Assembly: GCA_902789555.1 (NCBI GenBank)
Contig: CADAOF010000002.1
Span: 97,993-161,992 of the forward strand
Direction of reading: 5' to 3'
DNA from: an uncultured Lachnospiraceae bacterium
GTDB taxonomy: Bacteria > Bacillota > Clostridia > Lachnospirales > Lachnospiraceae
Length of the DNA: 64,000 bases
The notes beneath the pieces were generated by a model, which worked only from the letters and a program-made list of their open reading frames with translations, did not search any database and had not been told where the DNA came from. The position numbers and the translations under genes were made by a program. This document shows, in pieces, positions 29,385-42,786 of this stretch (the first letter of the stretch is position 1; every line of letters starts with the position of its first letter).

Positions 29385-30032
29385 ATGAATGAAAAGCATT
29401 TAACGGAGAAAGACCTTCGGGCTTTCATCCGTCTTCTCGCAGGCGCCTCTCCCGCTCCGGGGGGAGGCGGCGGCAGCGCGCTCATCGGTGCGACGGGCGC
29501 CGCGCTCGGCGTCATGACTGCCGCTCTGACCGCCGGCAAGCCGAAATTCGCGGAGTTTGAGGAAGGCGCTCTGAAGGCGCAGGAACAGGGGATCCCCCTG
29601 ACCGCGGCCTTCCTGGATGCGGTGGACCGCGACGCGGAGGTGTGGAAACGCTCTCTGCGCGCGCTGCTCATGCCGCAGGGCGACCGGATCCAGGAAGAGA
29701 TCCGTCAGGATACGCTGGACCAGGCCGCGCGCGACTGCTCCCGGGTCCCGCTGGACGTCCTCAGGCTGTGCAAGGAAGCTGCCGACCTCCTGCTCGCGCT
29801 GGAGGGGCATGTGGATCCCGACTGCGCGGACGAGCTCGGCGTGGCCGCTGCGGCGCTTGCCGCATCCGCCAGAAGCTCCTGGCTGAACATCCTCAGCAGC
29901 CTGAAGAGCCTTTCGGGGCGGGACGATCCCTTTGTCATCTCGGCCTACGCGGAAGGAAAGCGCCTCACCGAATACGTCACTACCCGCTGCGACGCCATGT
30001 ACGAAAGGATCCTCGCAGTCTGCGACCTGTAA
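29385..30032 (+). CDS. Cyclodeaminase/cyclohydrolase family protein (FTCD C-terminal-like)
   Basis: 215 residues, all helical. The N-terminal segment ASPAPGGGGGSALIGATGAAL is the hallmark of formiminotetrahydrofolate cyclodeaminase and methenyl-THF cyclohydrolase (FchA) proteins, which make 5,10-methenyl-THF or open it in one-carbon metabolism. Length matches the stand-alone version. It has its own promoter and terminator. No histidine- or glycine-degradation genes are next to it. Confidence 0.9.
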   Translation: MNEKHLTEKDLRAFIRLLAGASPAPGGGGGSALIGATGAALGVMTAALTAGKPKFAEFEEGALKAQEQGIPLTAAFLDAVDRDAEVWKRSLRALLMPQGDRIQEEIRQDTLDQAARDCSRVPLDVLRLCKEAADLLLALEGHVDPDCADELGVAAAALAASARSSWLNILSSLKSLSGRDDPFVISAYAEGKRLTEYVTTRCDAMYERILAVCDL

Positions 30033-30102: not shown

Positions 30103-30146
30103 GTTTGTTAAACATACTGAACATCTGAACACAATTGTGAACAAAC
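30103..30146 (+). promoter_or_regulatory. Candidate activator-binding sites upstream of racemase-like gene
   Basis: GTTTGTTAAA at 30103-30112 (inside TGTTTGTTAAACA) and its inverted near-copy TGTGAACAAAC at 30136-30146 lie 80-120 bp upstream of the -24 element. The identical ten bases occur at 37042-37051 upstream of the other sigma-54 promoter. This is the expected position for enhancer-binding protein sites; binding by the local activator is inference. Confidence 0.5.
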
Positions 30147-30222: not shown

Positions 30223-30238
30223 TGGCACTTTATTTGCT
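30223..30238 (+). promoter_or_regulatory. Sigma-54 (-24/-12) promoter
   Basis: TGGCAC-N5-TTGCT, a full match to the sigma-54 consensus, with the GG and GC pairs correctly spaced. The expected transcript starts near 30250, about 30 bases before the ATG at 30281. Confidence 0.85.
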
Positions 30239-30280
30239 ACTATTTTTATAGAATGATTTTTCTGCAGGAGGAAAGCATTT

Positions 30281-31411
30281 ATGAAAATCACCCGGATCAA
30301 TGTTCGGAATTTGCTGATTCCACTGAAAGTTCCTTACGCCTTACAAAAATCATACGGAGTCAAATCACACACATGCTGTGTCTTAGTTGCAGTCCATACT
30401 GACGAAGGTATTGTCGGATACGGCGAATGCAACCCTCAGCCCGGTTTCACTGACGAAAGTGCTGAAACCGCTAAGAGCGTGATTGGCAAAATACTAGCAC
30501 CAGCAATCACCGGTATGGATCCTACCGATGTTGCCGCCATCGACCGCCGCATGGATATCGTCTGCAAAAACAACAATCTCCCAAAAGCTGCCGTCAATAC
30601 GGCCTGTTATGATATCGCGGGAAAAGCAGCCGGCGTTCCGGTCTATAAACTGCTCGGAGGAAAACTGCAGTCATCGATCCCGATAATGCACGCAATTGGC
30701 AATATCAGCGCTGAAGAAGGTACAAAACTTGTCCTACAGCGCAAAAACGAAGGTTATCGTTCCGTCATGGTTAAATGCGGAATGGAGAGCGTCGAATATG
30801 ATGCAGAACGCATTTTTGCCATCCAGGATGCAGTAGGCAAAGACTACCCGCTCGTTGTCGACGTTAATCAGGGTTGGGATTACCACAAGGCACTTCGTTT
30901 TCTGCGTCTTACGGAGGGCTGCAATATCGTCTGCCTAGAACAACCCGTTCCTCATTGGGACATCGAATCCCTGATACGTCTGAAAGCCGCGAGTGATGTT
31001 CCGATTTCTGCAGACGAGAGCGTTTTCTCGATCCACGAAGCCGTTCAGGTCATCAAAAACCGGGCAGTCGACATCATCAGCTTAAAAGTGAATAAGCACG
31101 GCGGCATTCTGAAAGAAAAACAGATTGCCATCATGGCTCAGTATGCAGGGATCAAGCTGCTGATGAACTCCATGCTGGAAGAAGGCTTGGCGCAGGCAGC
31201 CAGCCTGCAGATCGGTGTTACCCTGCCGAATCTTGTGGATTTCGGCAGTGCTTATTTTTCTCCGCTGCGTCTCGACGACGACATCACAACATATTCCGAA
31301 CAAGTCCGAAACGGTTGGGTCCATATCAACGACAGACCCGGACTTGGCGTTGAAATTCGGGAGGATGTTGTTCAAAAATATTTACAAGATGAATTCTGGG
31401 CTGAAGCCTGA
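30281..31411 (+). CDS. Enolase-superfamily enzyme, MLE/dipeptide-epimerase-like
   Basis: 376 residues with capping domain and barrel. Barrel residues visible are VMVKCG (Lys165), VVDVNQGW (Asp194), LEQP (Glu220), ADES (Asp245) and SLKVNK (Lys269), which is the acid-base and Mg set of the muconate-lactonizing/racemase subgroup. The first Lys of the usual KxK is Met163, so the chemistry may be one-sided or altered. GGAGGAAAG precedes the ATG. It heads a sigma-54-driven operon with an opine-dehydrogenase-like gene 35 bp downstream, suggesting epimerisation or deprotonation of an amino-acid-derived substrate. Confidence 0.88.
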   Translation: MKITRINVRNLLIPLKVPYALQKSYGVKSHTCCVLVAVHTDEGIVGYGECNPQPGFTDESAETAKSVIGKILAPAITGMDPTDVAAIDRRMDIVCKNNNLPKAAVNTACYDIAGKAAGVPVYKLLGGKLQSSIPIMHAIGNISAEEGTKLVLQRKNEGYRSVMVKCGMESVEYDAERIFAIQDAVGKDYPLVVDVNQGWDYHKALRFLRLTEGCNIVCLEQPVPHWDIESLIRLKAASDVPISADESVFSIHEAVQVIKNRAVDIISLKVNKHGGILKEKQIAIMAQYAGIKLLMNSMLEEGLAQAASLQIGVTLPNLVDFGSAYFSPLRLDDDITTYSEQVRNGWVHINDRPGLGVEIREDVVQKYLQDEFWAEA

Positions 31412-31446
31412 TTTCTCCAATAAAAATAAAAAAGTGAGAAAAACGT

Positions 31447-32535
31447 ATGGAATCCAAAATAACCGTTATTGGTGCGGGCAACGGCGGAACAGCCATTGCC
31501 GCCCATCTGACCAGTCTTGGTGTCGAAGTCAGACTTTGCGACCTGTTTCCTTCCTACCTTGAAGGAATCATTGCTGAAGGCGGTATCATTCTTACTGAGA
31601 ATGGCACAACGAAAAAATATACTCCTTCCCTGGTTACAACAGATGTCGGCAAAGCTATCTCGGGTGTTCGTCTCATCATGGTCGTGACCCCGTCCTTTAC
31701 CCACAAAATGATTGCCGAAGCCTGCAGTCCGCATCTTGAAGGCGGTCAAATCGTTGTCCTGAATCCGGGCAGAACTGCTGGCGCGATTGATTTTCTGAAC
31801 ACAGTACGGAAAAACGGCTGTAAGACCGATATTATTATCGCTGAAGCACAGACCCTGATCTACGCCTGCCGTAAGTCAGGGCCGGCGTCCGTCGAGATCT
31901 TCGGTACAAAAAAACAGGTCTCTTTGGGCGTTTTCCCTGCCTCGCGCACGAGAGAAGTCCTGAAAGTCATCACCCCTTTATATCCGCAGTTTATTCCTGC
32001 AGCCAACTGTCTGGAGACGTCTCTTTCCAATATCGGCGCTCTCTTCCATCCAACGCCGGTCCTGCTCAACATCGGCCGTATTGAATCGGATCCCCATGAT
32101 TTTCGTTACTACATCGACGGGATTTCCCCTTCTGTTGCGCGCCTGATTCACAACATTGATCAGGAACGACTAGCTGTAGCCAAGGCTTACGGTGTGACGG
32201 TTCTGACTGCTGAGGAATGGATGCTGCAGTCCTACGAGACAAGCGGCAGCGATCTGTATGAACTGATCCAGAATAATCTTGCCTATCACGGTATCAAGGG
32301 TCCTCATGCGATAGATGTCCGTTATGTGACCGAAGATGTACCGATGAGTCTTGTTCCAATTTCGGAATTGGCCAGGATTGCCGGGGTTCCCACACCTAAT
32401 ATTGATGCCGTTATTCAGTTAGCTTCCACGATCTATGAACGCGATTTTCGTTCAGAAGGCCGAAGTGCGAAAAATCTTGGTCTGGAAGGCATGAGCATCA
32501 CTGACACGCTTCAATTCTTTGAAAACGGAGCATAA
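31447..32535 (+). CDS. Octopine/nopaline dehydrogenase family protein (first copy)
   Basis: 362 residues. The N-terminal Rossmann fold has TVIGAGNGGTAIAAHL (GxGxxG) for NAD(P), and the C-terminal helical domain carries DVRYVTEDVPMSLVPISELA, a motif shared with the second copy on the other strand. Family members form or oxidise opines, secondary amines of an amino acid and a 2-oxo acid. It is co-transcribed with the enolase-superfamily enzyme. An oxidising, catabolic direction is inferred from the adjoining uptake system. Confidence 0.88.
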   Translation: MESKITVIGAGNGGTAIAAHLTSLGVEVRLCDLFPSYLEGIIAEGGIILTENGTTKKYTPSLVTTDVGKAISGVRLIMVVTPSFTHKMIAEACSPHLEGGQIVVLNPGRTAGAIDFLNTVRKNGCKTDIIIAEAQTLIYACRKSGPASVEIFGTKKQVSLGVFPASRTREVLKVITPLYPQFIPAANCLETSLSNIGALFHPTPVLLNIGRIESDPHDFRYYIDGISPSVARLIHNIDQERLAVAKAYGVTVLTAEEWMLQSYETSGSDLYELIQNNLAYHGIKGPHAIDVRYVTEDVPMSLVPISELARIAGVPTPNIDAVIQLASTIYERDFRSEGRSAKNLGLEGMSITDTLQFFENGA

Positions 32536-32550
32536 TATCGAAAGAACATA

Positions 32551-32588
32551 AAGGAGTCCCGGAAGCTATCGCTTCCGGGGCTCCTTTT
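32551..32588. terminator. Bidirectional terminator between the two dehydrogenase genes
   Basis: A 15-16-bp stem from AAGGAG to CTCCTT with a TATC loop lies between the convergent dehydrogenase genes, ending in TTTT on plus. Confidence 0.88.
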
Positions 32589-32604
32589 GCTTGTTTTCCG
32601 AGTC

Positions 32605-33720
32605 TTAATTACCTTCTTCCAGGAAATGCATGAATTCTTCGGCATTCATCTTTTCAATGCCAAGTTCCTCCATGGTCCTGGCCTCCTTGTAAAAGTCACG
32701 GTTCATCACGAAACCAAGGATATCCGCAAGGGCCGTTATCGCTCTGTGTTCAAAGCCCATCTGATCCAGGAAAGCTGCTATCGGGATAAGGCCGAACGGA
32801 ACATCTTCCGTTACGTAGCGGTAATCCAGAGTTTTCGGCATCCTGCTCTCCATAAAGATCTTCGGAACCAGTGAATGCTGAATCTCGCTGAGGGTCGTGC
32901 CTTCACCGCCCTGATAAGCGTACCAGTCAAGCGTAATTTCCGGAATGGAACGTACACGCATGTTAGGCCATACATTGACCTGCATCCGGTCTTTATCAGT
33001 AGCTTCGATCAGGTTATCCAAAGACTTTGTTACGCATTCCGCATAAAACAGGCGATCTTCCTGATTGTCGATATTAGCGGCGTTCAACAGCATCAAAGAC
33101 GTGTGAAGCGTAGTATTGGTATTGCTCATACCTGTCTCCACGATGTTGTTATAACGGATAATATAAGGATAAATTCCTTTCAGACGTTCAAATGCCCCAT
33201 CACTGTTCTTATTCGGGAACATGGCAACGCCTAGATTGTGCTTGTAACCTCGGACATAGGAGCCAGCAGGGCCATCCTTGCGTGTTGCATACATCATGCA
33301 GGAAAACTCGGCAAACTGAACTCTGGTCTTGCATCCGATATCTCTGAGCACTTTATTAAAATAAAGCGAACCACCGAAGTTAGCTGGGCAAAGCGCAACG
33401 ATCTGACCATCTCTCAGAAAAGGAGCAGCCGTCTTCGCGATATTTGCCTGTGCATATGCCGGTGCAATAACAAAAACAATATCAGATTCTGCCAGCGCCT
33501 CTTCAATATCAGTTGTCACTTTATGAAGCTTAGCAAAACCACCCTGCAGACCATTGCTGGGAAGCGTGCGAAGCTTAATACCTCCTTGTTCAATGACCGG
33601 CTGCAGTCCGGCAGCAAATGCTGGTGAATCATACAGAGTAACCTGATGTCCGCGAATAGTAAGATCTGCCGCCGCGGCAAATCCACCGTTTCCTCCACCG
33701 ATTATTGTGATCTTTTCCAT
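32605..33720 (-). CDS. Octopine/nopaline dehydrogenase family protein (second copy)
   Basis: 371 residues with TIIGGGNGGFAAAADL as the nucleotide-binding loop and DYRYVTEDVPFGLIPIAAFL late in the C-terminal domain. It is clearly related to the plus-strand copy yet divergent over most of its length, so the two probably differ in substrate or stereochemistry. It starts 18 bp after the TRAP permease stop and is the last gene of the binding protein-permease-dehydrogenase operon. Confidence 0.88.
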   Translation of the reverse strand: MEKITIIGGGNGGFAAAADLTIRGHQVTLYDSPAFAAGLQPVIEQGGIKLRTLPSNGLQGGFAKLHKVTTDIEEALAESDIVFVIAPAYAQANIAKTAAPFLRDGQIVALCPANFGGSLYFNKVLRDIGCKTRVQFAEFSCMMYATRKDGPAGSYVRGYKHNLGVAMFPNKNSDGAFERLKGIYPYIIRYNNIVETGMSNTNTTLHTSLMLLNAANIDNQEDRLFYAECVTKSLDNLIEATDKDRMQVNVWPNMRVRSIPEITLDWYAYQGGEGTTLSEIQHSLVPKIFMESRMPKTLDYRYVTEDVPFGLIPIAAFLDQMGFEHRAITALADILGFVMNRDFYKEARTMEELGIEKMNAEEFMHFLEEGN

Positions 33721-33738
33721 TTTTATCCCCTCTTTTTA

Positions 33739-35760
33739 TTATGCTTGAGCGGCTTTGACCTTTTTAGCCTTTACCGCCTGCGTTATGAACAGCAGCAGGA
33801 TCATCCCGGCAGCAACCGCCAGCAAAATGCCGCGAAGCGCCCAGGATGAATCATTGAACATCATCGCATACAGCGACAGGAAGACGACCAGTCCAGCAAA
33901 ACGTTGGATCTGATTCAGCGGACCGTTGAAGTATTTCTCCGTAAAAGTTCCCAAGAAATAGATAGCAACAATCGCAAATACTGCAATAATGCACTGCTCA
34001 TACCATGTCCCGTTAATCAGCTGCGAGTAAACGAACAGTATCGGGACATAGTAGAAGGTGAATCCCAGTTTTAGCGCCGTGAAGCCCGTCTTCATTGGAT
34101 TTCCTCCGGCAATACCTGCTGCTGCGAAAGCAGTCATGCAGACTGGCGGTGTGATCGTAGCCAATTGCGTGAACCAGAAAATCGTCAGATGAGCAACCAG
34201 CATGTCCACTCCAAGCGCCACGAGTGCGGGGCCGCTGAGCGTTGCCAGAATGATATAGGAGGTGCTGATTGGAAGGCCCATACCGAGCAGGTAGCCGATT
34301 GCAGCAACGAGCAGCAGAGTGATCCAAAGCTTACCCTGAGAGAAGCTCAGGATAATCGCCGTCGTTTTCATCATCAATCCTGTCACGTTGATCATTGATA
34401 CGATGATCGATGCACAGAAGATCACACCGGCAATGGACATCAGTCCCTTGGCGCAGTTTTCCAACGCAAGAATCGTTTGCTTAAAGCTGATACGGGTACT
34501 TTTTCTGCTTTGCGCAAGTAAATAGATCAGCAACGTACAGCCAACGCCACTCAGGAAGGGCGTAAAGCCGCTGACTAACAAGCTAATCAGAATCAGGATC
34601 GGAAGGAAGAAAATTCCTCCGCTCTTCAATGTCTTTAAAAGATTCGGAATGTTGTCCGCAGGAAGCCCCTTCAAGCCTCTTTTTCTTGCCATCAGATCGA
34701 CCAGGAAATAGATTGCGATGTAAAAAAGTAATGCAGGTATGATCGACAGAATACAAACTTTGCCATATGCTACACCGACTGTTTCTGCCAGGATAAAAGC
34801 TCCTGTGCCCATGATCGGCGGCATAATCTGACCTCCCGTTGAAGCACAGGTCTCAATGGCACCTGCCTCCTCCGGGGTATAGCCTGTCTTCTTCATCATC
34901 GGAATGGTCAGAGTTCCGGTCGTTACTACATTGGCAATTGCGCTACCCGAGATAGTTCCCATTGCCGCAGACGAAATAACGGCGACTTTAGCCGGTCCGC
35001 CACGGCGTTTTCCAGCTAGGGCAATACAAATATTCATGAAATGCTTATCCGCACCAGTTGCCTGAAGGAAAGTCCCAAAAGCCAGAAATCCAAAGAGCAG
35101 CGAGGAAGCCATGCCACTCAGAGAACCGAACATCCCTTCTGTCGTGAGGAAGACTTGTTCAGTAAACTTATTCAGATTCAGACCTTTGTAATAGAACATC
35201 TTCGGCATATGCGGTCCTAAAAAAGCATATGCAATGAACAATCCGCAGATGACCGTTATCGACAGTCCCAGCGTTCGCCGACCAGCTTCCAAAAGCATGA
35301 ATACCAGGACGATTGCCACAACTTTGTCCATGGGCAAAACCTTGGACATAAAAGGGATGCGCGTCAGGATCCTCTCGTGATTGACCATGATATAGACCAA
35401 ACTTGCTATTGAGGCTGCAATCAGGATCCAGTCATAGAAAGCCACTTTATCCCGGTCAAACTTGCTCTTTTTCGTTGTCGGATACCAGAGAAAAGTCAGT
35501 GCCAGCATAGCACACAGCACAATGCCGCGCTGAATATGCGGCAGAAAAACACCGGCAAATGCGGTATAAAACACCAGCAGAGTAGTAGCGACTGCAATGA
35601 CCAATGCCAGATATCGAGGAAAGCCTTTCAGTCTTCTGTACTTACCGGTCGCTTTTTCCTGAAGTTCTTCTGAAACCTCAGCCTGTTCCATGGCTTCCGC
35701 CGAAAAGGTGCTTCCCGGAGTTTTTTGTTCTTCTTGATTCAAGGCTTCTTCTCCTTTCAT
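33739..35760 (-). CDS. TRAP transporter fused permease (DctQ-DctM type, TAXI)
   Basis: About 673 residues with an acidic cytoplasmic N-terminus and some 16-18 transmembrane helices. The large-subunit signatures AAMGTISGSAIANVVTTGTL, STGGQIMPPIMGTGAFILAE and LLGMGLPISTSYIILATL are intact, and a four-helix DctQ-like part precedes them, the fused form found with TAXI binding proteins. Uptake is driven by an ion gradient. I use the ATG at 35760; a GTG at 35787 lies within a hairpin that also covers the likely RBS. Confidence 0.92.
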   Translation of the reverse strand: MKGEEALNQEEQKTPGSTFSAEAMEQAEVSEELQEKATGKYRRLKGFPRYLALVIAVATTLLVFYTAFAGVFLPHIQRGIVLCAMLALTFLWYPTTKKSKFDRDKVAFYDWILIAASIASLVYIMVNHERILTRIPFMSKVLPMDKVVAIVLVFMLLEAGRRTLGLSITVICGLFIAYAFLGPHMPKMFYYKGLNLNKFTEQVFLTTEGMFGSLSGMASSLLFGFLAFGTFLQATGADKHFMNICIALAGKRRGGPAKVAVISSAAMGTISGSAIANVVTTGTLTIPMMKKTGYTPEEAGAIETCASTGGQIMPPIMGTGAFILAETVGVAYGKVCILSIIPALLFYIAIYFLVDLMARKRGLKGLPADNIPNLLKTLKSGGIFFLPILILISLLVSGFTPFLSGVGCTLLIYLLAQSRKSTRISFKQTILALENCAKGLMSIAGVIFCASIIVSMINVTGLMMKTTAIILSFSQGKLWITLLLVAAIGYLLGMGLPISTSYIILATLSGPALVALGVDMLVAHLTIFWFTQLATITPPVCMTAFAAAGIAGGNPMKTGFTALKLGFTFYYVPILFVYSQLINGTWYEQCIIAVFAIVAIYFLGTFTEKYFNGPLNQIQRFAGLVVFLSLYAMMFNDSSWALRGILLAVAAGMILLLFITQAVKAKKVKAAQA

Positions 35761-35765
35761 ATGAT

Positions 35766-35797
35766 ATCCCCCGCGGCAATCACTCACCGCGGGGGAT
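35766..35797 (-). promoter_or_regulatory. Intercistronic hairpin over the permease RBS
   Basis: ATCCCCCGCGG and CCGCGGGGGAT form a perfect 11-bp stem with a 10-base loop between binding-protein and permease genes. The GGGGGAT that would serve as the permease RBS is within the stem. There is no T-run, so it is more likely to stabilise the upstream message and lower permease translation than to terminate. Confidence 0.75.
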
Positions 35798-35826
35798 GCC
35801 GTTAACTGCAGGTTCTTATACAGGAC

Positions 35827-36894
35827 TTACTTTACTAATCCCACCTCTTTGTAGAATTTCAGAGCGCCAGGATGAATCTCAATAGCGGTACCTTCATTCA
35901 TGTGCTCAGGATCGAATTCGCCAAACGAGGCGTGAACGCCGAGGAAGTAGTCTTTGTTCTCATAAAGGGTCTTAGTGAAGGTGTAGACCGTGTCTTCATC
36001 TGCATCTGCGGCGCAGAAGAAAACAATCGGCAGACCTACGGTTTGGATGTCTTCTTTCTGTCCTTCATAAGTACCGGCCTTGATGGTATACTTGGCAAAT
36101 CCATACTTATCGCAAAGGGTTTGAATAACGTCTTCATCCAGGCTGACCAATTTGCCATCATTGCGGTTGACAAGAGCTTCTGTTACCGTGGAAGCCGGGA
36201 CGTTCAGCATCGGGCTCTGAATGTCGATGTGGCGGTCTTTCCAGGCATCTGCCAAGGAAGCGCCGTCAGCGTAATAAACAGAAGCGCCCCATTTTTCCAT
36301 GTCAGTAGGGTCATTCAGTCCATATGCTTGAAGGATCATGCTAACAATCAGAGTAGAGGCGTTGCCGACCGGGTACAAGCCGACCGTGCACTTCATCTGA
36401 TCTTTGATGAACTGACCGTAAGTCTGAATATCCAAAGTAGTCAGCGGCTGGATGACCGTGGGCTGCAGACAGGCAATCGAGCGAAGATTCTCATACTTTT
36501 CTTCGTAAGGGCTGGTGCCGGCCACGGCAGCTGCCAGGAACGGGCCGTAGCTCATACCAATCTCTGATTCACCGGACGAAATAACACCGATGTTGCCAAC
36601 GGAACCAGGCCCGGGAATCGCCGTCATCGGGAAGCCTTCATAACTTTCATTGAACTTATCCGCGATACCGGCGCCAATCGTATACCAGGAGCCAGTCGCT
36701 GAGCCGGTCAGAAGGTCAAGTGCCTCAATCTTCTTCTGACCTGCTTCGGTACTCTGTGCAGGAGCAGCCGTGCTGCCAGCAGGAGCCTGAGTACTAGCCT
36801 TCGGCGCTTCGGTGGTGGTCACAGGCTTCTCACCGCAGGCGGCAAGTCCCAAGACCAAAACGATTGCAATGACGAAACATAAAACTTTTTTCAT
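35827..36894 (-). CDS. TAXI-family TRAP solute-binding lipoprotein
   Basis: 355 residues. Signal peptide with lipobox LAAC (Cys20), Thr/Ala/Pro-rich linker to about 55, then a TAXI binding domain starting LLTGSATGSWYTIGAGIADKF and containing PGPGSVGNIGVISSGESEIG. TAXI proteins bind carboxylates such as glutamate or 2-oxoglutarate-like molecules. AAGGAG precedes the ATG. It is the first gene of the minus-strand operon, behind a sigma-54 promoter. Confidence 0.92.
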   Translation of the reverse strand: MKKVLCFVIAIVLVLGLAACGEKPVTTTEAPKASTQAPAGSTAAPAQSTEAGQKKIEALDLLTGSATGSWYTIGAGIADKFNESYEGFPMTAIPGPGSVGNIGVISSGESEIGMSYGPFLAAAVAGTSPYEEKYENLRSIACLQPTVIQPLTTLDIQTYGQFIKDQMKCTVGLYPVGNASTLIVSMILQAYGLNDPTDMEKWGASVYYADGASLADAWKDRHIDIQSPMLNVPASTVTEALVNRNDGKLVSLDEDVIQTLCDKYGFAKYTIKAGTYEGQKEDIQTVGLPIVFFCAADADEDTVYTFTKTLYENKDYFLGVHASFGEFDPEHMNEGTAIEIHPGALKFYKEVGLVK

Positions 36895-36948
36895 TTCCTT
36901 TCTCCTTTTTCACGTTATTGCTGACAAACCAGCTTACACATATTATAT

Positions 36949-36964
36949 AGCAAAGGTCATGCCA
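36949..36964 (-). promoter_or_regulatory. Sigma-54 (-24/-12) promoter for TRAP operon
   Basis: On minus: TGGCAT-N5-TTGCT (one base from TGGCAC), with correct GG-GC spacing, about 55 bases upstream of the binding-protein ATG. Confidence 0.8.
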
Positions 36965-37034
36965 AAATATGTATGCCGGAAATGGCTTTTTTCTTATTTT
37001 TTTTGTAAACTATTATGCACATTGCAATTTTTCC

Positions 37035-37075
37035 TTTACAGGTTTGTTAAAATATGTTAAATTATTTCAACAAAG
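37035..37075. promoter_or_regulatory. Candidate activator-binding array between TRAP operon and activator gene
   Basis: GTTTGTTAAA (37042-37051), ATGTTAAAT (from 37054) and an inverted TTTGTTGAAA (37065-37074 on the other strand) cluster 75-110 bp upstream of the minus sigma-54 promoter and just before the activator start, so the same sites could serve activation of the operon and autoregulation. Confidence 0.5.
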
Positions 37076-37096
37076 ATAGAAGGTGGCACTAATATA

Positions 37097-39079
37097 ATGA
37101 TCAATCTTGCAGTGGTTGGCTCTTCCGCTTTCGGACTCTATGTCAAAAATATCACAGCACTCCAACTCTTTCCTGACGTTATCCTGAATTACTGCGGGGA
37201 CACTTTAGCCGAGAGCATCCCAGTCATAGCACAGCGTGTTCTGGAGGCTAACAATCAGGTTCTGCTCATCGGTCCGAATGATTACATGAAAATCAAGGAC
37301 TATGTCCAGATCCCGTATTATATCGTCAGTCCAACGCTATATGACTTTCTAAACATCCATGAGAGCATAAGCGATTATTCCCGCACAGCCATTGTCATAA
37401 GACGTGCGCACAACCTGGATCTCACACTGTTGGAGAAAGCTCTCGGGATTCGATACAACAAATTCATCTACAATTACAATGACGATGTCTATGCCCTTCT
37501 CTGCCAGCTGAAGGAGCAGGGTTACCACACAATCGTCGGTGTTCAATTTGTTGTTCAGATGGCAGAGTCGCTCGGATTGAAAGCTATCTATTATTATACG
37601 CAGCCAAATCTTGAAATTGCTGTCGGTAATGCGATTCAAATCGCACAGAATATGGAAAAGGAACGGGACTATCTCGAAGAGATCCAGTCTATTTTGGAAA
37701 ATGCCATGTGCGGTGCTGTCTGTTTGAGCTACCCGGACCTGAATATCATCTACGCCAATCAAACAGCTGTTAATATGCTGCGCTGCAGCCCGCAGGACCT
37801 GATGCAAAGAAACATCAAGGATATGATCTCCAAGAGTTTTTATAAGACTATCAGTCTCGGTCAGGACGCGAGTGAGATCTCTCAGTTTGACTTTTATGGC
37901 GTTAATGTCGTGGGGAACGTTGTTCAATTAAAGCTTAGAGGCACTATTTCCCGACTTTGCATCCTCTTTGAAAACGCCTCGAACATTCTCGAATATGAGA
38001 CGATTATCCGTCAGGAGATCAAAAGAAAAAGTTTCGAAACACATTACACCTTCAAAGATATCCTGGGTCAGAGCGAGCAGATTAAGGAAGCGGTCATGCA
38101 AGCCCGCCAGTTTGCCAGAAGTCAGTCAACGATTCTGATCAACGGAGAGACCGGGGCCGGAAAGGAAGTCTTTGCGCAAAGCATTCACGAATTCAGCGTT
38201 CGCCGGAATTATCCTTTTGTTGCCATCAACTGTGCCGCCATGCCGGATACGCTGATTGAAAGCGAACTCTTCGGCTACATGCCCGGCTCCTTTACAGGAG
38301 CCAGCAAAAAAGGCAAGACCGGACTGATCGAGCTTGCCAATCATGGCACAATGTTCCTGGATGATATCGATGCCTTGTCACCTGGTTTCCAGGCTAAACT
38401 TCTGCGGGTTATGCAGGAGCATGAGATAATCCGCGTCGGCGGGGACTCCCCCATCCCTGTCGACGTCCGTTTCATCGTTGCGACAAACCGAAATCTTAAG
38501 CAGTTGGTTCGAGAGGGACAGTTCCGTAATGATCTTTATTTTCGCGTCAATGTTCTGCACCTCTTTATTCCACCGCTCAGACAGCGGAAAGAAGACATTC
38601 CCGTGCTCTTCTCCCATTATCTCCAACAATTCAGCAAAAGCATTCATGCCGCAGTAAATAATCAGATGGATGAATTGATGCTTCCCCTGTCTGCATATCC
38701 TTTCCCGGGAAACATACGTGAACTAATCAGCGTTACAGAACGATTCGCCACACTTTTCGATGAAACCAGGCTTAACGATCGTGATTATGTCCTTAAACTG
38801 CTTTCCTACTGTCTGGACAATGAAGACGAAGACCTTCCGCCTGAATCCATCGTATGCCGTACTCCTGCCGAATCAGAGGCCAAATTAGATAAAACTCAGG
38901 AACCACTGTTCGAAAAACCGCTTATCACTGGTGACTACAAGGCCGACCTGGCTGAGGCAGAAAACAAGATCCTGCAAATCTATTACCAGCAATTTAACGG
39001 CAACATGACTCAGCTAGCTCAAAAACTTGGAATCAGCAGGACCACATTGTATAATAAGATCAATAAGAAGCAACGCTGA
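37097..39079 (+). CDS. PrpR-type sigma-54-dependent transcriptional activator
   Basis: 660 residues: PrpR_N-like sensor domain (1-185), PAS-like domain (about 192-300), AAA+ domain (318-555) and a C-terminal Fis-type HTH (NMTQLAQKLGISRTTLYNKI). Walker A is GETGAGKE (350-357). The sigma-54-contacting loop reads GSFTGA (397-402) instead of GAFTGA, and Walker B reads MFLDDID, with Asp where Glu is usual. It is divergent from the TRAP operon and probably controls both metabolic units through the shared GTTTGTTAAA sites. rpoN follows 42 bp downstream. Confidence 0.93.
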   Translation: MINLAVVGSSAFGLYVKNITALQLFPDVILNYCGDTLAESIPVIAQRVLEANNQVLLIGPNDYMKIKDYVQIPYYIVSPTLYDFLNIHESISDYSRTAIVIRRAHNLDLTLLEKALGIRYNKFIYNYNDDVYALLCQLKEQGYHTIVGVQFVVQMAESLGLKAIYYYTQPNLEIAVGNAIQIAQNMEKERDYLEEIQSILENAMCGAVCLSYPDLNIIYANQTAVNMLRCSPQDLMQRNIKDMISKSFYKTISLGQDASEISQFDFYGVNVVGNVVQLKLRGTISRLCILFENASNILEYETIIRQEIKRKSFETHYTFKDILGQSEQIKEAVMQARQFARSQSTILINGETGAGKEVFAQSIHEFSVRRNYPFVAINCAAMPDTLIESELFGYMPGSFTGASKKGKTGLIELANHGTMFLDDIDALSPGFQAKLLRVMQEHEIIRVGGDSPIPVDVRFIVATNRNLKQLVREGQFRNDLYFRVNVLHLFIPPLRQRKEDIPVLFSHYLQQFSKSIHAAVNNQMDELMLPLSAYPFPGNIRELISVTERFATLFDETRLNDRDYVLKLLSYCLDNEDEDLPPESIVCRTPAESEAKLDKTQEPLFEKPLITGDYKADLAEAENKILQIYYQQFNGNMTQLAQKLGISRTTLYNKINKKQR

Positions 39080-39121
39080 GCCGACCAGCTTAGCAAGCAG
39101 AACCGCAGGTATGGAGACAAG

Positions 39122-40474
39122 ATGGAACTAAGCCAAAAGTTGGAATTGCAGCTGTCTCAGCAGCAGCTGATTAGCCTGCAGATCCTCCAGATGAATACGC
39201 TGGATCTTGCCGCTTATGTTGAAGAACAAGCACAATCTAATCCCGTCATTGAGCCTATCCACGAAACTGACGAGAGCCTTGTTTCCGTATCCGTAAAAGA
39301 CTGGGAAGACTGTTATGACTGCGACGTTCAAAACCGCTATTATTCTGAACAGCCTATAGACCCATACGATCCTGTCTCAAATATCGCTCATACCGGCGGC
39401 TTGGAGATGACCCTTCCCAATGCACTTTGTCTGCTGATAGAGTGCTTGCACAAGCCGGAACCTCTTCGCAGCCGTATGCGTTTCCTTGCACACTGCCTTG
39501 ATGAGGACGGTTATCTACGGATCAACCTCGAAGAACTTGCTGCCGAAGGAGGGTGCAGTACAGACGAAATTGCCGAAGCACTAAACGAACTGCAGCGAAC
39601 TGCACCGCCCGGTATAGGCGCCCGTAGTCTGAGCGAGTGTTTGGCTCTTCAGTTAAAGGCGCGACATGCAGATGAGCGGATCGTATGTCTCGCCCGGGAT
39701 CACCTGGAGGATCTTGCTGCTAGGCGTTATCAGTTGCTTTCCAGCCTGCTTGGTCTTTCCGAAGACGAACTCCACAAGGCAAAAAAACTTCTTTCCGAAC
39801 TCCAGCCCCGCCCCGGTGCTGCTTATGCCTCAACCGCTAAAGCCGAATATATCGTTCCTGAACTTTTCGTCGAACAAGAAAACGGCGATTTCATTCTCAG
39901 CATCCGCGGCAGAGAGAAGCGCTACTTTTCTCTCGATTCTTATTACTGCTCACTGCTGAACACGACCGACGATGAAGAAGTCCGCCAGTATCTGACAGAC
40001 AAAATCCAACAGGCAAAGCTCTTGCGCTGGAGGATCGAACAGCGCAGAAGCACGCTGGAACGCTGCGCAGAAGTCATCATTAAGCGACAGAAGGACTTTT
40101 TTACTATAGGACGCAGAGGACTGAAGCCCCTGTCTCTTGCGGATGTCGCTTCCGTTTTAGATCTGAACGTCTCCACGATCAGTCGAACGATCCGAAACAA
40201 ATACCTGGCTTATCCCGGGGGAGTCGTACCGCTTTCTTTCTTCTTTATCCGCAAAGTTGGTTCAGAAAATGCTGATCAATCAGATACCGGGAATGTTGCT
40301 ATTTGTGAGATCATCAAGGAGATCATTGCTGATGAAAACAAAAAACACCCCCTGTCCGACCAGACCATCTGCGAAAAACTGACTACACGAGGCATAAGAA
40401 TCGCGCGTAGAACTATTGCCAAATATCGCGACAAACTGAGGATTCCTCCAGCATCAGAACGCAGGGAAAAATAA
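39122..40474 (+). CDS. rpoN: RNA polymerase sigma-54 factor
   Basis: 450 residues. Region I is Gln/Leu-rich (QKLELQLSQQQLISLQILQM), the core-binding region contains YLRINLEELA and PPGIGARSLSECLALQL, and the HTH reads SLADVASVLDLNVSTISRTI. The C-terminal RpoN box is ARRTIAKYR (428-436), which reads the -24 element. The gene directly follows the activator gene and so appears dedicated to, or at least expressed with, this island. Whether the genome has another rpoN cannot be seen here. Confidence 0.95.
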   Translation: MELSQKLELQLSQQQLISLQILQMNTLDLAAYVEEQAQSNPVIEPIHETDESLVSVSVKDWEDCYDCDVQNRYYSEQPIDPYDPVSNIAHTGGLEMTLPNALCLLIECLHKPEPLRSRMRFLAHCLDEDGYLRINLEELAAEGGCSTDEIAEALNELQRTAPPGIGARSLSECLALQLKARHADERIVCLARDHLEDLAARRYQLLSSLLGLSEDELHKAKKLLSELQPRPGAAYASTAKAEYIVPELFVEQENGDFILSIRGREKRYFSLDSYYCSLLNTTDDEEVRQYLTDKIQQAKLLRWRIEQRRSTLERCAEVIIKRQKDFFTIGRRGLKPLSLADVASVLDLNVSTISRTIRNKYLAYPGGVVPLSFFFIRKVGSENADQSDTGNVAICEIIKEIIADENKKHPLSDQTICEKLTTRGIRIARRTIAKYRDKLRIPPASERREK

Positions 40475-40603: not shown

Positions 40604-42724
40604 TTATTCGACCGGTTCCACCGCGAGCACGTGCGGATTCACGGCGTTGTACCAGTACAGGAAGCAGACAATGTCGACCTTGTCATCGACCTTCAGACCT
40701 TCCACTGCCTTGTAAACGTCAGTGTCCGGACCGGTCAGGAAGGATTCCACGCAGAAGCTGATCTTATCTGCTTCAACGGCAGCGTCAAAATAGAGATCCG
40801 GATCGCTGTCGCTGTTCTTTTTGCTGATGGCTTCTCCGTTATCCTGCGGACGGACGACCGCACCTTTGAAGACGACCTTGCGGTTCATGTACTTCATCAG
40901 TTCCTCACCGCCGATGCCGGTCACGTCCACCGGCGCCGCAATGTATTTGCCTTCCAGGATTTTTTCCAGTTTGCCTTTTTCACCGACTTCCTGTTCGCCG
41001 TTGTAGATATCCTTCTCACCCTTGACCCGGATCTTCGTGCCGATCTCCAGCTGATCGAATTCTTCCTGCGTCATGAGCAGCTTGTAGCAGTAATAAGCGC
41101 CGTCCGCATCGGCCAGATAGACGTTGGCCGTACCCTCGGCGGCATAGTAGGACTGTTTGCCCTGAACATAGGCTTCGATCGTGACTTCGTCGAGTTTTTC
41201 CGCTGCAAGGAATTCCTCATAGGTCATGGCGCCTTCGCCCTTATCGTTCACGTTGCCCTTCACCGCGACAGCCGTCACGTGCGGGTTCGGGTTGTTGTAC
41301 CAGTACAGGAAACCGCAGATATCGACGACGTCACCGACCTTCAGGGCGTCCGCAGCCTTGTAGGCTTCGCTGTCCGGACCGGTCAGATAGGATTCCACGC
41401 AGAATCCCACGCTGCCGTTTTCATTGCCGGCCGTGATGTAGATGTCGGGGTCGGAGTCGCTTTCCTTCCTGCCGAGTTCGGTAACGACCAGATCCTTGAA
41501 GATGACCTTCTGGTTCATCTTCTCAGCCAGAGCTTCGTCATCGCCGACCAGAGCGGTCACGTTTACGGGCGGGGCAATGTAGCTGCCGCTCATGATCGCT
41601 TCCAGCTTGCCGTTTGCAACTTCGATCTCACCGGCGTATTCGCCCATCTCGCCGCTGACCCGGACCTTGACGCCGATCTCCAGATTATCGAACTCTTCCT
41701 GCGTCATCTTGCAGCCGTAGCAGTAGTAGGCGCCGTCGGCATCCGCCAGGTACAGGTTAGCCGTTTCGTTTTTCGCATAGTAGCTCTGCTTGCCCTGGAC
41801 GTAGGCTTCGACGATGACCGGTTCCATCTTCTCGGTCGCAACATATTCCGCATAGGACAGGACCTCCTCGCCGCTCTTTTCATTGACGTTTCCGTAAAGG
41901 GAGATCTCCGTCACGTGCGGGTTCGCGCCGTTGTACCAGTACAGGAAGCCATATACGGAGATGTTGTCGCCGACCTTCAGGGCTTCCGCAGCCTTATAGG
42001 CTTCGGTGTCCGGGCCGGTCAGGTAGGATTCCACGCAGAAATCCACGATGCCGTACCGGTTGCCCGCACGGAAATACAGGTCGGGATCCGAATCGCTTTC
42101 CTTCTTGCTCACGGCAGAGCCGTCAGCCTGCGCAAGGACGACGAGATCGTCAAAATAGGCTTTCTGATTCATGAACTTCGCCAGTTCTTCGGTATTGCCG
42201 ATGAATTCGGCGACGTCCACTTGCGCGGTTTCGTTGTAGTCCGTGTCATCGATCGCTTCCAGCTTGCCGTTGCTGATCTCGATCTCGCCGGCATATTCGG
42301 CTTTCTCGCCGGAAACAAGGACCTTGATGCCGACTTCCAGCTTGTCGAACTGTTCCTGCGTCATCTTGCAGCCGTAGCAGTAGTAGGCGCCGTCTTCGTC
42401 AGCCAGATACAGGTTTGCCGTTTCGTTTTTCGCATAGTAGCTCTGCCAGCCCTGGACGTAGGCTTCGATCTCGACCGGTTCCATCAGCTCAGCTGCCATG
42501 AATTCCGCGTAGGTCATGCCCTTCGCAGCCGGTTCGGTGGGCGCTTCGGTAGGGGCTTCGGTCGGGGCCTCGGTAGGGGCCGCAGTCGGCGCCTCGGTGG
42601 TCGCCGGAACTTCCGTCGTCTTCGGCGGCTCGGTCGGAGCCGAAGTGGTCTCCTTCGGATTGCCGCATGCCGCGAGGCCGAGTACCATGGCCAGCGCCAG
42701 CACGATTGCTAAAAGTTTTTTCAT
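40604..42724 (-). CDS. Lipoprotein with three tandem ~212-residue repeats
   Basis: 706 residues. Lipobox LAAC (Cys20) is followed by a linker of APTE repeats to about residue 65, then three copies of a long module (about 70-277, 289-490, 500-706). Each copy begins with MTYAEFxAAE-like residues, then EAYVQGxQSYYA, LADADGAYYCY, GxKVxVSGE, and later SDSDPDLYF, FCVESYLTGPDTEAYKA and GFLYWYN-x-x-NPHVT. Strand patterns like EAYVQG and VSGE suggest OB-fold-type barrels, two per module. The copies are also alike at DNA level, at spacing of 634-648 bp. AAGGAG sets the start at 42724. It is surface-exposed; function unknown. Confidence 0.82.
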   Translation of the reverse strand: MKKLLAIVLALAMVLGLAACGNPKETTSAPTEPPKTTEVPATTEAPTAAPTEAPTEAPTEAPTEPAAKGMTYAEFMAAELMEPVEIEAYVQGWQSYYAKNETANLYLADEDGAYYCYGCKMTQEQFDKLEVGIKVLVSGEKAEYAGEIEISNGKLEAIDDTDYNETAQVDVAEFIGNTEELAKFMNQKAYFDDLVVLAQADGSAVSKKESDSDPDLYFRAGNRYGIVDFCVESYLTGPDTEAYKAAEALKVGDNISVYGFLYWYNGANPHVTEISLYGNVNEKSGEEVLSYAEYVATEKMEPVIVEAYVQGKQSYYAKNETANLYLADADGAYYCYGCKMTQEEFDNLEIGVKVRVSGEMGEYAGEIEVANGKLEAIMSGSYIAPPVNVTALVGDDEALAEKMNQKVIFKDLVVTELGRKESDSDPDIYITAGNENGSVGFCVESYLTGPDSEAYKAADALKVGDVVDICGFLYWYNNPNPHVTAVAVKGNVNDKGEGAMTYEEFLAAEKLDEVTIEAYVQGKQSYYAAEGTANVYLADADGAYYCYKLLMTQEEFDQLEIGTKIRVKGEKDIYNGEQEVGEKGKLEKILEGKYIAAPVDVTGIGGEELMKYMNRKVVFKGAVVRPQDNGEAISKKNSDSDPDLYFDAAVEADKISFCVESFLTGPDTDVYKAVEGLKVDDKVDIVCFLYWYNAVNPHVLAVEPVE

Positions 42725-42786
42725 GTTATTTCTCCTTTTAACTGTTAACGTCCCGTCCGGGAACATTACAAAAATGGAACATAAAT

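Follow-up and report, generated by a model that had tools for sequence, protein, structure and literature searches.

Gene content of the block

The window (the whole 64,000-nucleotide stretch of DNA that was analysed) holds, at 30223–40474, a block of seven genes identified from open reading frames and Pfam/NCBIfam profiles, arranged as ENO–ODH1, TAXI/TRAP/ODH2 and EBP–rpoN. On the plus strand, the MLE-type enolase-superfamily enzyme ENO (30281–31411), a predicted opine epimerase/racemase, is followed by the octopine-dehydrogenase-family enzyme ODH1 (31447–32535). The minus strand encodes a TAXI-family TRAP solute-binding protein (35827–36894), a fused TRAP transporter permease (33739–35787) and a second octopine-dehydrogenase-family enzyme, ODH2 (32605–33720). 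The plus strand then resumes with the sigma-54 activator EBP (37097–39079) and rpoN, encoding sigma-54 (39122–40474). Outside the block lie an FTCD_C-family gene on the left (29385–30032, plus strand) and, on the right, a gene for a lipoprotein with OB-fold repeats (40604–42766, minus strand), assigned by profile and flank comparison. Every gene named in the original prediction is present, with the count corrected from six to seven, and the block is AT-richer than its surroundings as proposed there (GC 47.7%, versus 59.6% to the left and 58.8% to the right). The host is a gut bacterium whose relatives include rumen Lachnospiraceae.

Sigma-54, its activator and their promoters

RpoN matches all three sigma-54 domains (PF00309, AID; PF04963, core-binding; PF04552, DNA-binding), carries the RpoN box ARRTIAKYR and passes TIGR02395 (367 bits, cut-off 277). 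EBP has the features of a bEBP: a PrpR_N plus PAS sensor region, an AAA+ domain (PF00158, ~221–224.6 bits; Walker A GETGAGKE) and a Fis-type HTH, with a GSFTGA loop that is GAFTGA with A changed to S. It falls below the curated PrpR and PrdR equivalog cut-offs (TIGR02329, 348 of 499; NF041552, 335 of 795). A profile search of the source genome (2.26 Mb, 96.6% complete) returned a single rpoN, that of the block, and a single strong PF00158 match, EBP at 224.6 bits, the four others all scoring ≤33 bits. The check for a second rpoN that had been suggested thus found none, nor any further strong sigma-54 activator, and at this completeness a second rpoN is unlikely. Because the block holds the only rpoN and the only strong sigma-54 activator found in the genome, the pathway and the transcription apparatus that switches it on seem to move together.

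Sigma-54 promoters had been proposed ahead of both metabolic units, and both were found. The –24/–12 promoter of ENO–ODH1 (TGGCACTTTATTTGCT, 30223–30238, plus strand) matches the consensus perfectly; that of TAXI–TRAP–ODH2 (TGGCATGACCTTTGCT, 36964–36949, minus strand) lies ~55 bp before TAXI and has a perfect consensus in the relatives G005 and G004. The exact pattern TGGCAYN5TTGCW occurs four times in the 2.26-Mb genome (reversed-pattern control, three), twice within the block. These two precede genes and the other two fall inside genes (for an FMN_bind protein and an FAD-dependent protein), leaving the block's pair as the only exact consensus sites outside genes in the whole genome. Scanning the window with up to two mismatches gave 14 sites against 25.4 expected, no enrichment, so we limited the analysis to exact sites.

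G005 and G004 retain both sigma-54 promoters. The G005 sequence hardly differs from the window, so the informative comparison is that with G004. There, the DNA upstream of ENO is barely alignable except for the promoter and a TGAACA stretch. Three TGAACA repeats (30118–30143) are a tentative candidate for the activator-binding site of the ENO promoter. They end ~80 bp before the –24 element in the window and ~28 bp before it in G004, a spacing closer than is usual for an activator site that makes a firm assignment doubtful, and we saw no equivalent set at the second promoter. A sigma-70-like promoter picked out by eye (TTTACA-N17-TAAATT, 37035–37063, plus strand) would serve EBP–rpoN; G004 keeps TTTACA and has a changed second hexamer.

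An enolase-superfamily clade beside opine-type oxidoreductases

We take the active-site positions of the MLE subgroup to be the metal ligands, a strand-6 lysine and a Lys-x-Lys on strand 2. ENO has the three acidic metal ligands (D194/E220/D245) and the strand-6 lysine (Lys269), which place it in this subgroup, whereas on strand 2 it reads Met163-x-Lys165. Met-x-Lys is present in 7/7 members of its clade and K-x-K in all seven other aligned sequences (six controls and S. medicae). ENO keeps the metal ligands and both lysines (K165 and K269) of the subgroup's racemases, of which 2p88, an entry listed simply as a family protein that we take to be an N-succinyl-Arg/Lys racemase, is the best PDB match; it departs from them in Met163 and in clade-specific residues around strands 6–8. 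With the first Lys of KxK missing, the ENO reaction may differ from those of known racemases. ENO scores below the cut-off in all 18 NCBIfam models listed (dipeptide epimerase, OSBS, N-acetyl-Glu racemase, hydroxyproline dehydratase and others).

The clade is small and well supported (100/98) within the enolase superfamily, and its gene rows show a partnership of ENO with opine-type oxidoreductases. All five clostridial members share a row with octopine-dehydrogenase-family (NAD-type) genes, and both proteobacterial members with three-subunit flavin opine-dehydrogenase-like genes. In G569, from another, distant order, ENO sits between two ODHs (ODH–ENO–ODH) with an SSF symporter; the G369 row reads LysR–ENO–SSF–ODH, and sigma-54 genes are absent from both rows. 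G569 and the two plasmids were found through ENO itself and are therefore free of selection for ODH; G369, G004 and G005 came from searches with ODH or rpoN, which in part preselects them for an ODH nearby. The six other ENO matches in the phylum sample (E limit 1e-75) have KxK and no ODH within the 17–18.5 kb examined.

An ENO match at 1e-40 was present in 151 plasmid records, of which four were examined. DAO, Fer2 and Pyr_redox subunit genes occur in the rows of the plasmid ENO relatives; none of these flavin opine dehydrogenase genes is among the seven of the block. On the Phyllobacterium plasmid, ENO lies between an LAO-type ABC importer and B–C–A oxidoreductase genes, followed by RidA and ornithine cyclodeaminase, and its OdhB shares 78% identity with the product of an A. 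tumefaciens gene that is annotated OoxB. In Paraburkholderia ~4–7 kb containing other genes separates the flavin-subunit genes from ENO, so this case is ambiguous.

ODH1 belongs to the octopine dehydrogenase family (PF02317 above cut-off), with catalytic His201/Asp297, presumably equivalent to H212/D329 of scallop OcDH; the dyad is conserved in all 24 aligned ODHs. ODH2 is assigned by the same family profile, its PDB match and its His/Asp alignment. For both, the best solved match is 1bg6, N-(1-D-carboxyethyl)-L-norvaline dehydrogenase (275 and 151 bits, nearly full length), compared with which the block has two paralogues beside an enolase-superfamily enzyme and a substrate that is predicted only. 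The ENO–ODH pairing is not general among ODH relatives: ENO is absent near ODH in 10 of the 11 other relatives in the order sample (six ORFs each side; E limit 1e-40), leaving one of 11 non-own ODH genomes with the pair, and in three of three Lawsonibacter/Oscillibacter-type contigs. A further homologue search used a limit of 1e-70. The tree was too weak (71/65) to assign the ODH2 type as the ancestral partner. The importer is a TAXI-TRAP transporter, its binding protein (TIGR02122, 164.5 bits, cut-off 84) and fused permease (TIGR02123, 593 bits, cut-off 321) both above cut-off.

Conservation and empty sites within the genus

The block was found in three genomes, all of one genus (16 genomes, with ENO searched in part of them). 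The seven-gene order is identical in L002/G005 and L003/G004, so the neighbourhood check proposed for these genes came out in favour of their conservation together. In G009 and G006 the FTCD_C-family and right flank genes are ~0.14 and 0.1 kb apart, versus 10.57 kb in the window; the block appears to have been gained or lost as one unit. No integrase or transposase is among the seven genes and no tRNA in the 64-kb window; a transposase end (rve_2, 1.3e-8) lies immediately left of the G004 copy. That copy, at the same right flank, has 59% GC, so low GC is not a fixed mark of the block and is weakened as proof of recent import.

Linkage of rpoN and activator across the order

Carrying rpoN with a pathway had been thought rare, a view that does not hold in this order: with one family set aside, rpoN has an activator no more than 10 kb away in at least 18 of the 27 genomes that carry it (eight activator candidates scored per genome; the place of G043 taken from the overlapping first sample). 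Family f17 gave 1/50 among the places listed, and four genomes (G221, G252, G277 and G298) have an activator and no rpoN match at the limit used. In the first sample, 20 of 98 genomes matched PF04552, reduced to 17 by dropping the partial or weak G019, G021 and G033; additional partial matches in G016, G030 and G036 were not counted. This sample overlaps the second rpoN/activator sample, and together they supplied the 44 genes of an rpoN tree (17 from the first and, from the second, 27 of the further genes, those with available loci). G013 groups there with the rpoN of the window (95/88); both are long branches, which leaves that grouping unsure, and with it how the rpoN genes of the genus descend from one another. 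At neighbouring rpoN loci the Pfam scan took in part of the ORFs.

Discussion

With moderate confidence, we read the block as a self-contained cassette that imports an opine-like acid, epimerizes it and cleaves it in an NAD(P)-dependent step, all under the control of a two-promoter sigma-54 regulon. In the scheme that we infer for effector, substrate, ENO reaction and ODH direction, EBP and rpoN would be co-expressed from an ordinary promoter, and the PrpR_N/PAS region of EBP would sense the compound or a product. EBP would then drive RpoN-polymerase at the promoters of ENO–ODH1 and TAXI–TRAP–ODH2. The TAXI-TRAP importer would bring in an acidic opine-like (N-carboxyalkyl) amino acid, ENO would epimerize the carbon adjacent to one carboxylate, and ODH1 and ODH2 would oxidize the C–N bond with NAD(P)+ to yield an amino acid and a 2-oxo acid, the whole being gained or lost as a single unit. 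From the original prediction, the self-contained sigma-54 unit, its kept order, its absence as a unit from two relatives and the opine-type class of substrate are supported at sequence level; the rarity of carrying rpoN is not.

The main competitor, which we consider unlikely but worth weighing, keeps the sigma-54 part and makes the substrate a (hydroxy)proline-like or other N-substituted, non-opine amino acid. ENO would be either a 2-epimerase or a dehydratase, and the ODHs would work as imine reductases. This reading would suit the second-best NCBIfam match of ENO (cis-3-hydroxyproline dehydratase, 183 bits, cut-off 500), the 335 bits of EBP to the PrdR model and an OCD-family gene that follows ODH1 in Oscillibacter. 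The flavin enzymes beside plasmid ENOs also have homology to D-hydroxyproline dehydrogenase, as have three-subunit flavin opine dehydrogenases in the available part of PMC4575208. However, the clostridial ENO partners are Octopine_DH-family proteins with the His/Asp dyad, the Phyllobacterium operon combines its OoxB-like subunit with arginine/ornithine-type genes, and no proline reductase or hydroxyproline gene is among the seven. That the ODHs instead serve to synthesize an opine, perhaps one that binds metal, is improbable. The crown gall NAD(P)H-dependent opine dehydrogenases are synthases (PMC4575208, in the part available), but against this reading the ODHs match Octopine_DH, and the seven genes of the block include a TRAP-type importer and neither an exporter nor an amino-group-adding enzyme. 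Still less credible, and close to refuted, is a chance neighbourhood of small units sharing a low-GC stretch, with rpoN serving other genes too. In L004–L006 the stretch examined does contain ODH1 but neither ENO nor sigma-54 genes, and the genome-wide site count rests on exact consensus matches; three genomes with identical seven-gene order, two clean empty sites and the lack of a further exact site outside genes in the genome argue against it.

The favoured reading, an opine-degrading cassette, resembles occ/noc-type opine catabolism and OdhBCA/OoxAB, as far as the available part of PMC4575208 describes them, in joining an oxidoreductase for opine-type cleavage to a dedicated importer. The Phyllobacterium operon provides a tie to these systems: its layout is like that of the occ operon and OdhB-C-A, with an ENO-clade gene inside an OdhBCA/OoxAB-type operon. 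Unlike occ/noc in that account, the block uses octopine-dehydrogenase-family enzymes, TAXI-TRAP, sigma-54 control and ENO, and has no flavin subunits. Its regulation recalls the single-activator sigma-54 system of Lactobacillus plantarum, with one activator and a narrow regulon (PMC3162934, in the part available); by comparison, the rpoN of the block belongs to a cassette whose site is empty in two relatives. Our searches found no literature joining opine dehydrogenase with the enolase superfamily, on an opine racemase or epimerase, or on sigma 54, Lachnospiraceae and enhancer-binding protein together; opine, rumen and Lachnospiraceae together returned nothing on topic, as judged by the listing.

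A wider proposal, which we put forward tentatively, is that in these gut Clostridia sigma-54 is often cassette cargo instead of a global factor: rpoN would move with a single activator and a single catabolic operon, and one genus would harbour different cassettes with different rpoN genes. ENO would be a new Met-x-Lys opine epimerase used both by anaerobes, in NAD-type opine pathways, and by aerobes, in flavin-type ones. The block would represent an alternative sigma factor apparently with a two-promoter regulon, gained or lost with its pathway, which makes the narrowness of the sigma-54 regulon directly testable. For an enolase-superfamily clade it provides a predicted function that is specific and can be checked, opine epimerization, and it suggests that gut anaerobes break down opines.

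Layout and distribution of the block

The block opens with the promoter of the enolase-superfamily gene (ENO; 30223) and closes with the stop codon of rpoN (40474); re-examination bore out the seven genes, gene order and two promoters originally described. It comprises ENO with the octopine-dehydrogenase-family gene ODH1 on the + strand (35 bp gap), the TRAP solute-binding protein (TAXI), fused permease (TRAP) and ODH2 on the − strand (gaps of 39 and 18 bp), and a PrpR_N/PAS sigma-54 activator (EBP) with rpoN on the + strand (42 bp gap). Its GC content is 47.7% versus 59.6% to the left and 58.8% to the right, with third-position GC of 48–56% in the seven genes versus 79% and 74% in the genes on either side (FTCD, left; an OB-repeat lipoprotein, right). 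The copy in a relative, G004, has 59% GC, so low GC is no fixed property of the block.

Conservation of the neighbourhood, on which the original prediction depended, is seen in two relatives with the same gene order, G005 (nearly identical to the window) and G004 (not nearly identical); 4 of 16 genomes of the genus combine a full rpoN with a strong activator. FTCD and the lipoprotein are 10.57 kb apart in the window, versus ~0.14 kb in G009 and ~0.1 kb in G006, where only a terminator-like hairpin lies between them. A close FTCD (66% or more) is found in 5 of the 16 genomes: the block is present in G000 (which holds the window) and G005 and absent in G009 and G006, and the contig of the fifth, G014, ends just after FTCD. 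Where both flanks are visible the block is thus present or absent as one piece, and it was very probably gained or lost as a unit. The G004 contig starts with the C-terminal end of a transposase (L053:1–84; rve_2, E = 1.3e-8), just left of the block.

By sequence comparison of G000 with G004, RpoN (70% identity) is the fastest-changing block protein, versus 86–93% for the metabolic proteins (ODH2 93, ENO 92, TRAP 92, TAXI 90, ODH1 86%); EBP is at 82%. RpoN changes as if constraint were relaxed by serving just two promoters. The right-flank lipoprotein (40604–42766), built of repeated OB-fold units with ~60% mutual alignment, diverges strongly between relatives (59–75%); the neighbouring SBP gene holds at ~78–94%.

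Enzymes and candidate substrate

Both ODHs belong to the Octopine_DH family, with 1bg6 the best solved match of each. The His and Asp that correspond to the catalytic residues His212 and Asp329 in scallop octopine dehydrogenase are conserved in 24 of 24 ODHs aligned. ENO has 2p88 as its best solved match (203 bits) and falls below the cut-off for all 18 listed NCBIfam models. Searching 391 genomes of the class (1e-70) gave one further ENO, 50% identical, in G569 from another order, where it is flanked by two ODHs (ODH-ENO-ODH-SSF symporter-GntR); a LysR-ENO-SSF-ODH row (ENO 47%) was located via its ODH in G369, from another family of the window's order. Neither row contains sigma-54 genes, so what recurs at the core is the set of enzymes, with importer and regulator varying. 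The seven ENOs of the clade, five clostridial and two from the plasmids described below, are set apart by one branch (100/98), and all carry Met-x-Lys on strand 2. ENO matches occur in 7 of 199 of the phylum sample, the window's own included; the other six, and the S. medicae ENO, have Lys-x-Lys, and no ODH lies within the stretches fetched around those six. Three of the six loci (L166, L168 and L170) have a sigma-54-activator-like gene, 31–37% identical to EBP, in the fetched 17 kb.

Two plasmid ENOs (36–37%) passed a 1e-60 limit, from Phyllobacterium zundukense and Paraburkholderia sprentiae. Both rows hold a RidA gene and a B-C-A series of DAO-, Fer2- and Pyr_redox/SoxA-type oxidoreductase genes. 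In Phyllobacterium this series follows ENO immediately; in Paraburkholderia it precedes ENO by ~4–7 kb, and a binding-protein gene and an MmgE/PrpD gene lie in between. In the Phyllobacterium row, an ABC importer with an LAO-type binding protein comes before ENO and the oxidoreductase trio, and RidA, ornithine cyclodeaminase, CtlX and a deiminase come after. The leading oxidoreductase shares 78% identity with an A. tumefaciens gene that carries the annotation opine oxidase subunit OoxB. The B-C-A order, ABC importer and ornithine cyclodeaminase are shared with flavin opine dehydrogenase genes, ordered B-C-A, and with the occ operon, which has an ABC permease and ornithine cyclodeaminase, as described in PMC4575208. 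That paper also gives D-hydroxyproline dehydrogenase as a homologue of flavin opine dehydrogenase, and the words racemase, mandelate and enolase are absent from its text. On balance we lean towards an opine-type substrate for the block.

Transporters, some of them for acidic solutes, adjoin further ODH relatives as well: Glt_symporter (L006 and, by similarity, L004), DcuC (L119), DctPQM (L117), SSF (L113 and, by annotation, L155) and an annotated p-aminobenzoyl-glutamate transporter (L156). At L115, L117 and L118, ODH relatives stand in a row with large SDH_alpha-domain proteins (by Pfam for L115 and L117) and TRAP genes and may mark a further opine-type pathway. On Aminobacter plasmids (L154, L157) an ODH relative belongs to a conserved gene row that also includes D-amino acid dehydrogenase, malate synthase G, amidohydrolase, tautomerase and RidA.

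In the proposed mechanism, the TAXI-TRAP importer would take in the compound and ENO would abstract and then restore the alpha proton at a carboxylate carbon, interconverting stereoisomers; the two ODHs would next oxidise the secondary amine to yield an amino acid and a 2-oxo acid. Opines have two carboxylate-bearing alpha carbons. ENO retains Lys165 and Lys269, positions presumably on opposite faces, judging from MLE structures, and we give an epimerase role even chances. It is a guess that each ODH could handle its own stereoisomer or chain type.

A probable sigma-54 mini-regulon

A second rpoN, a possibility raised by the original prediction, was not found: the genome (2.26 Mb, 38 contigs, 96.55% complete) has a single Sigma54_DBD match, the block's own. 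Among five PF00158 matches EBP scores 224.6 bits; the other four, at 24–33 bits, look like other AAA+ proteins. EBP has a GETGAGKE Walker A and a GSFTGA loop, and the RpoN box is present in the block's RpoN. Exact TGGCAYN5TTGCW occurs at four sites genome-wide, versus three for the reversed control pattern. Two are the block's promoters; the others are intragenic, one in an FMN_bind protein gene adjoining an NQR2/RnfD-type gene and one in a gene for an FAD-dependent protein. For Clostridium beijerinckii, PMC6510779 gives 57 consensus sites, 35 upstream of coding sequences, with a slightly looser pattern. Both block promoters are conserved in G005 and G004, the TAXI promoter with a perfect TGGCAC half in each. 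Three TGAACA repeats lie 80–105 bp upstream of the ENO promoter and are conserved in G004, where they end ~28 bp before it, which makes a role as activator sites doubtful; no equal set was seen at the TAXI-TRAP-ODH2 promoter. The block is very probably a sigma-54 mini-regulon of one sigma factor, one activator and two promoters.

rpoN and its activator across the order

The genes beside rpoN differ between genomes of the order, and among the ORFs scanned clear catabolic genes were found at five of seven loci inspected. These encode CoA-transferase, MaoC, SDR, thiolase and a Peripla_BP_4-type ABC importer with an activator (G013, contig C67, locus L039), a 2-oxoacid dehydrogenase complex with TRAP (G094), class II aldolase, ADH and TRAP (G096), dihydroxyacetone kinase (G093), and an aromatic amino acid lyase with a BCCT transporter (G043); none were clear at the G030 and G092 loci. 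G013 belongs to the window's genus and its rpoN is different (35% identity), making L039 a second, unrelated sigma-54 cassette within that genus. In the rpoN tree, a branch (92/92) sets family f17 apart, family f1 needs four changes, and the window's and G013's rpoN have long branches. An rpoN match with an in-frame stop (G403:C10:1100079–1100429), in a genome still holding one activator match, is possibly a decaying sigma-54 gene. The available parts of PMC3162934 and PMC12316311 discuss one-activator species and regulon trends, and nowhere describe rpoN as the cargo of a cassette.

A full rpoN domain was found in 17 of 98 relatives. Thirteen of these have exactly one strong activator, <10 kb from rpoN in 11 (three of which are copies of the block within the window's genus); of the four with several, a single genome has an activator that close. 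A larger sample of 392 genomes, which overlaps the first, includes 77 with rpoN, 50 of them in f17. At the score limit applied to this sample, that family shows two or more activators in 31 genomes, one in 12 and none in 7, with an activator within 10 kb of rpoN in 1 of 50 among the matches listed. The other 27 show exactly one activator in 18, two or more in 6 and none in 3. Carriage of rpoN with its pathway had been described as rare, a view that, for this order outside f17, does not survive the finding of an activator within 10 kb of rpoN in at least 18 of these 27 genomes: the pairing of rpoN with a nearby activator is general in this order.
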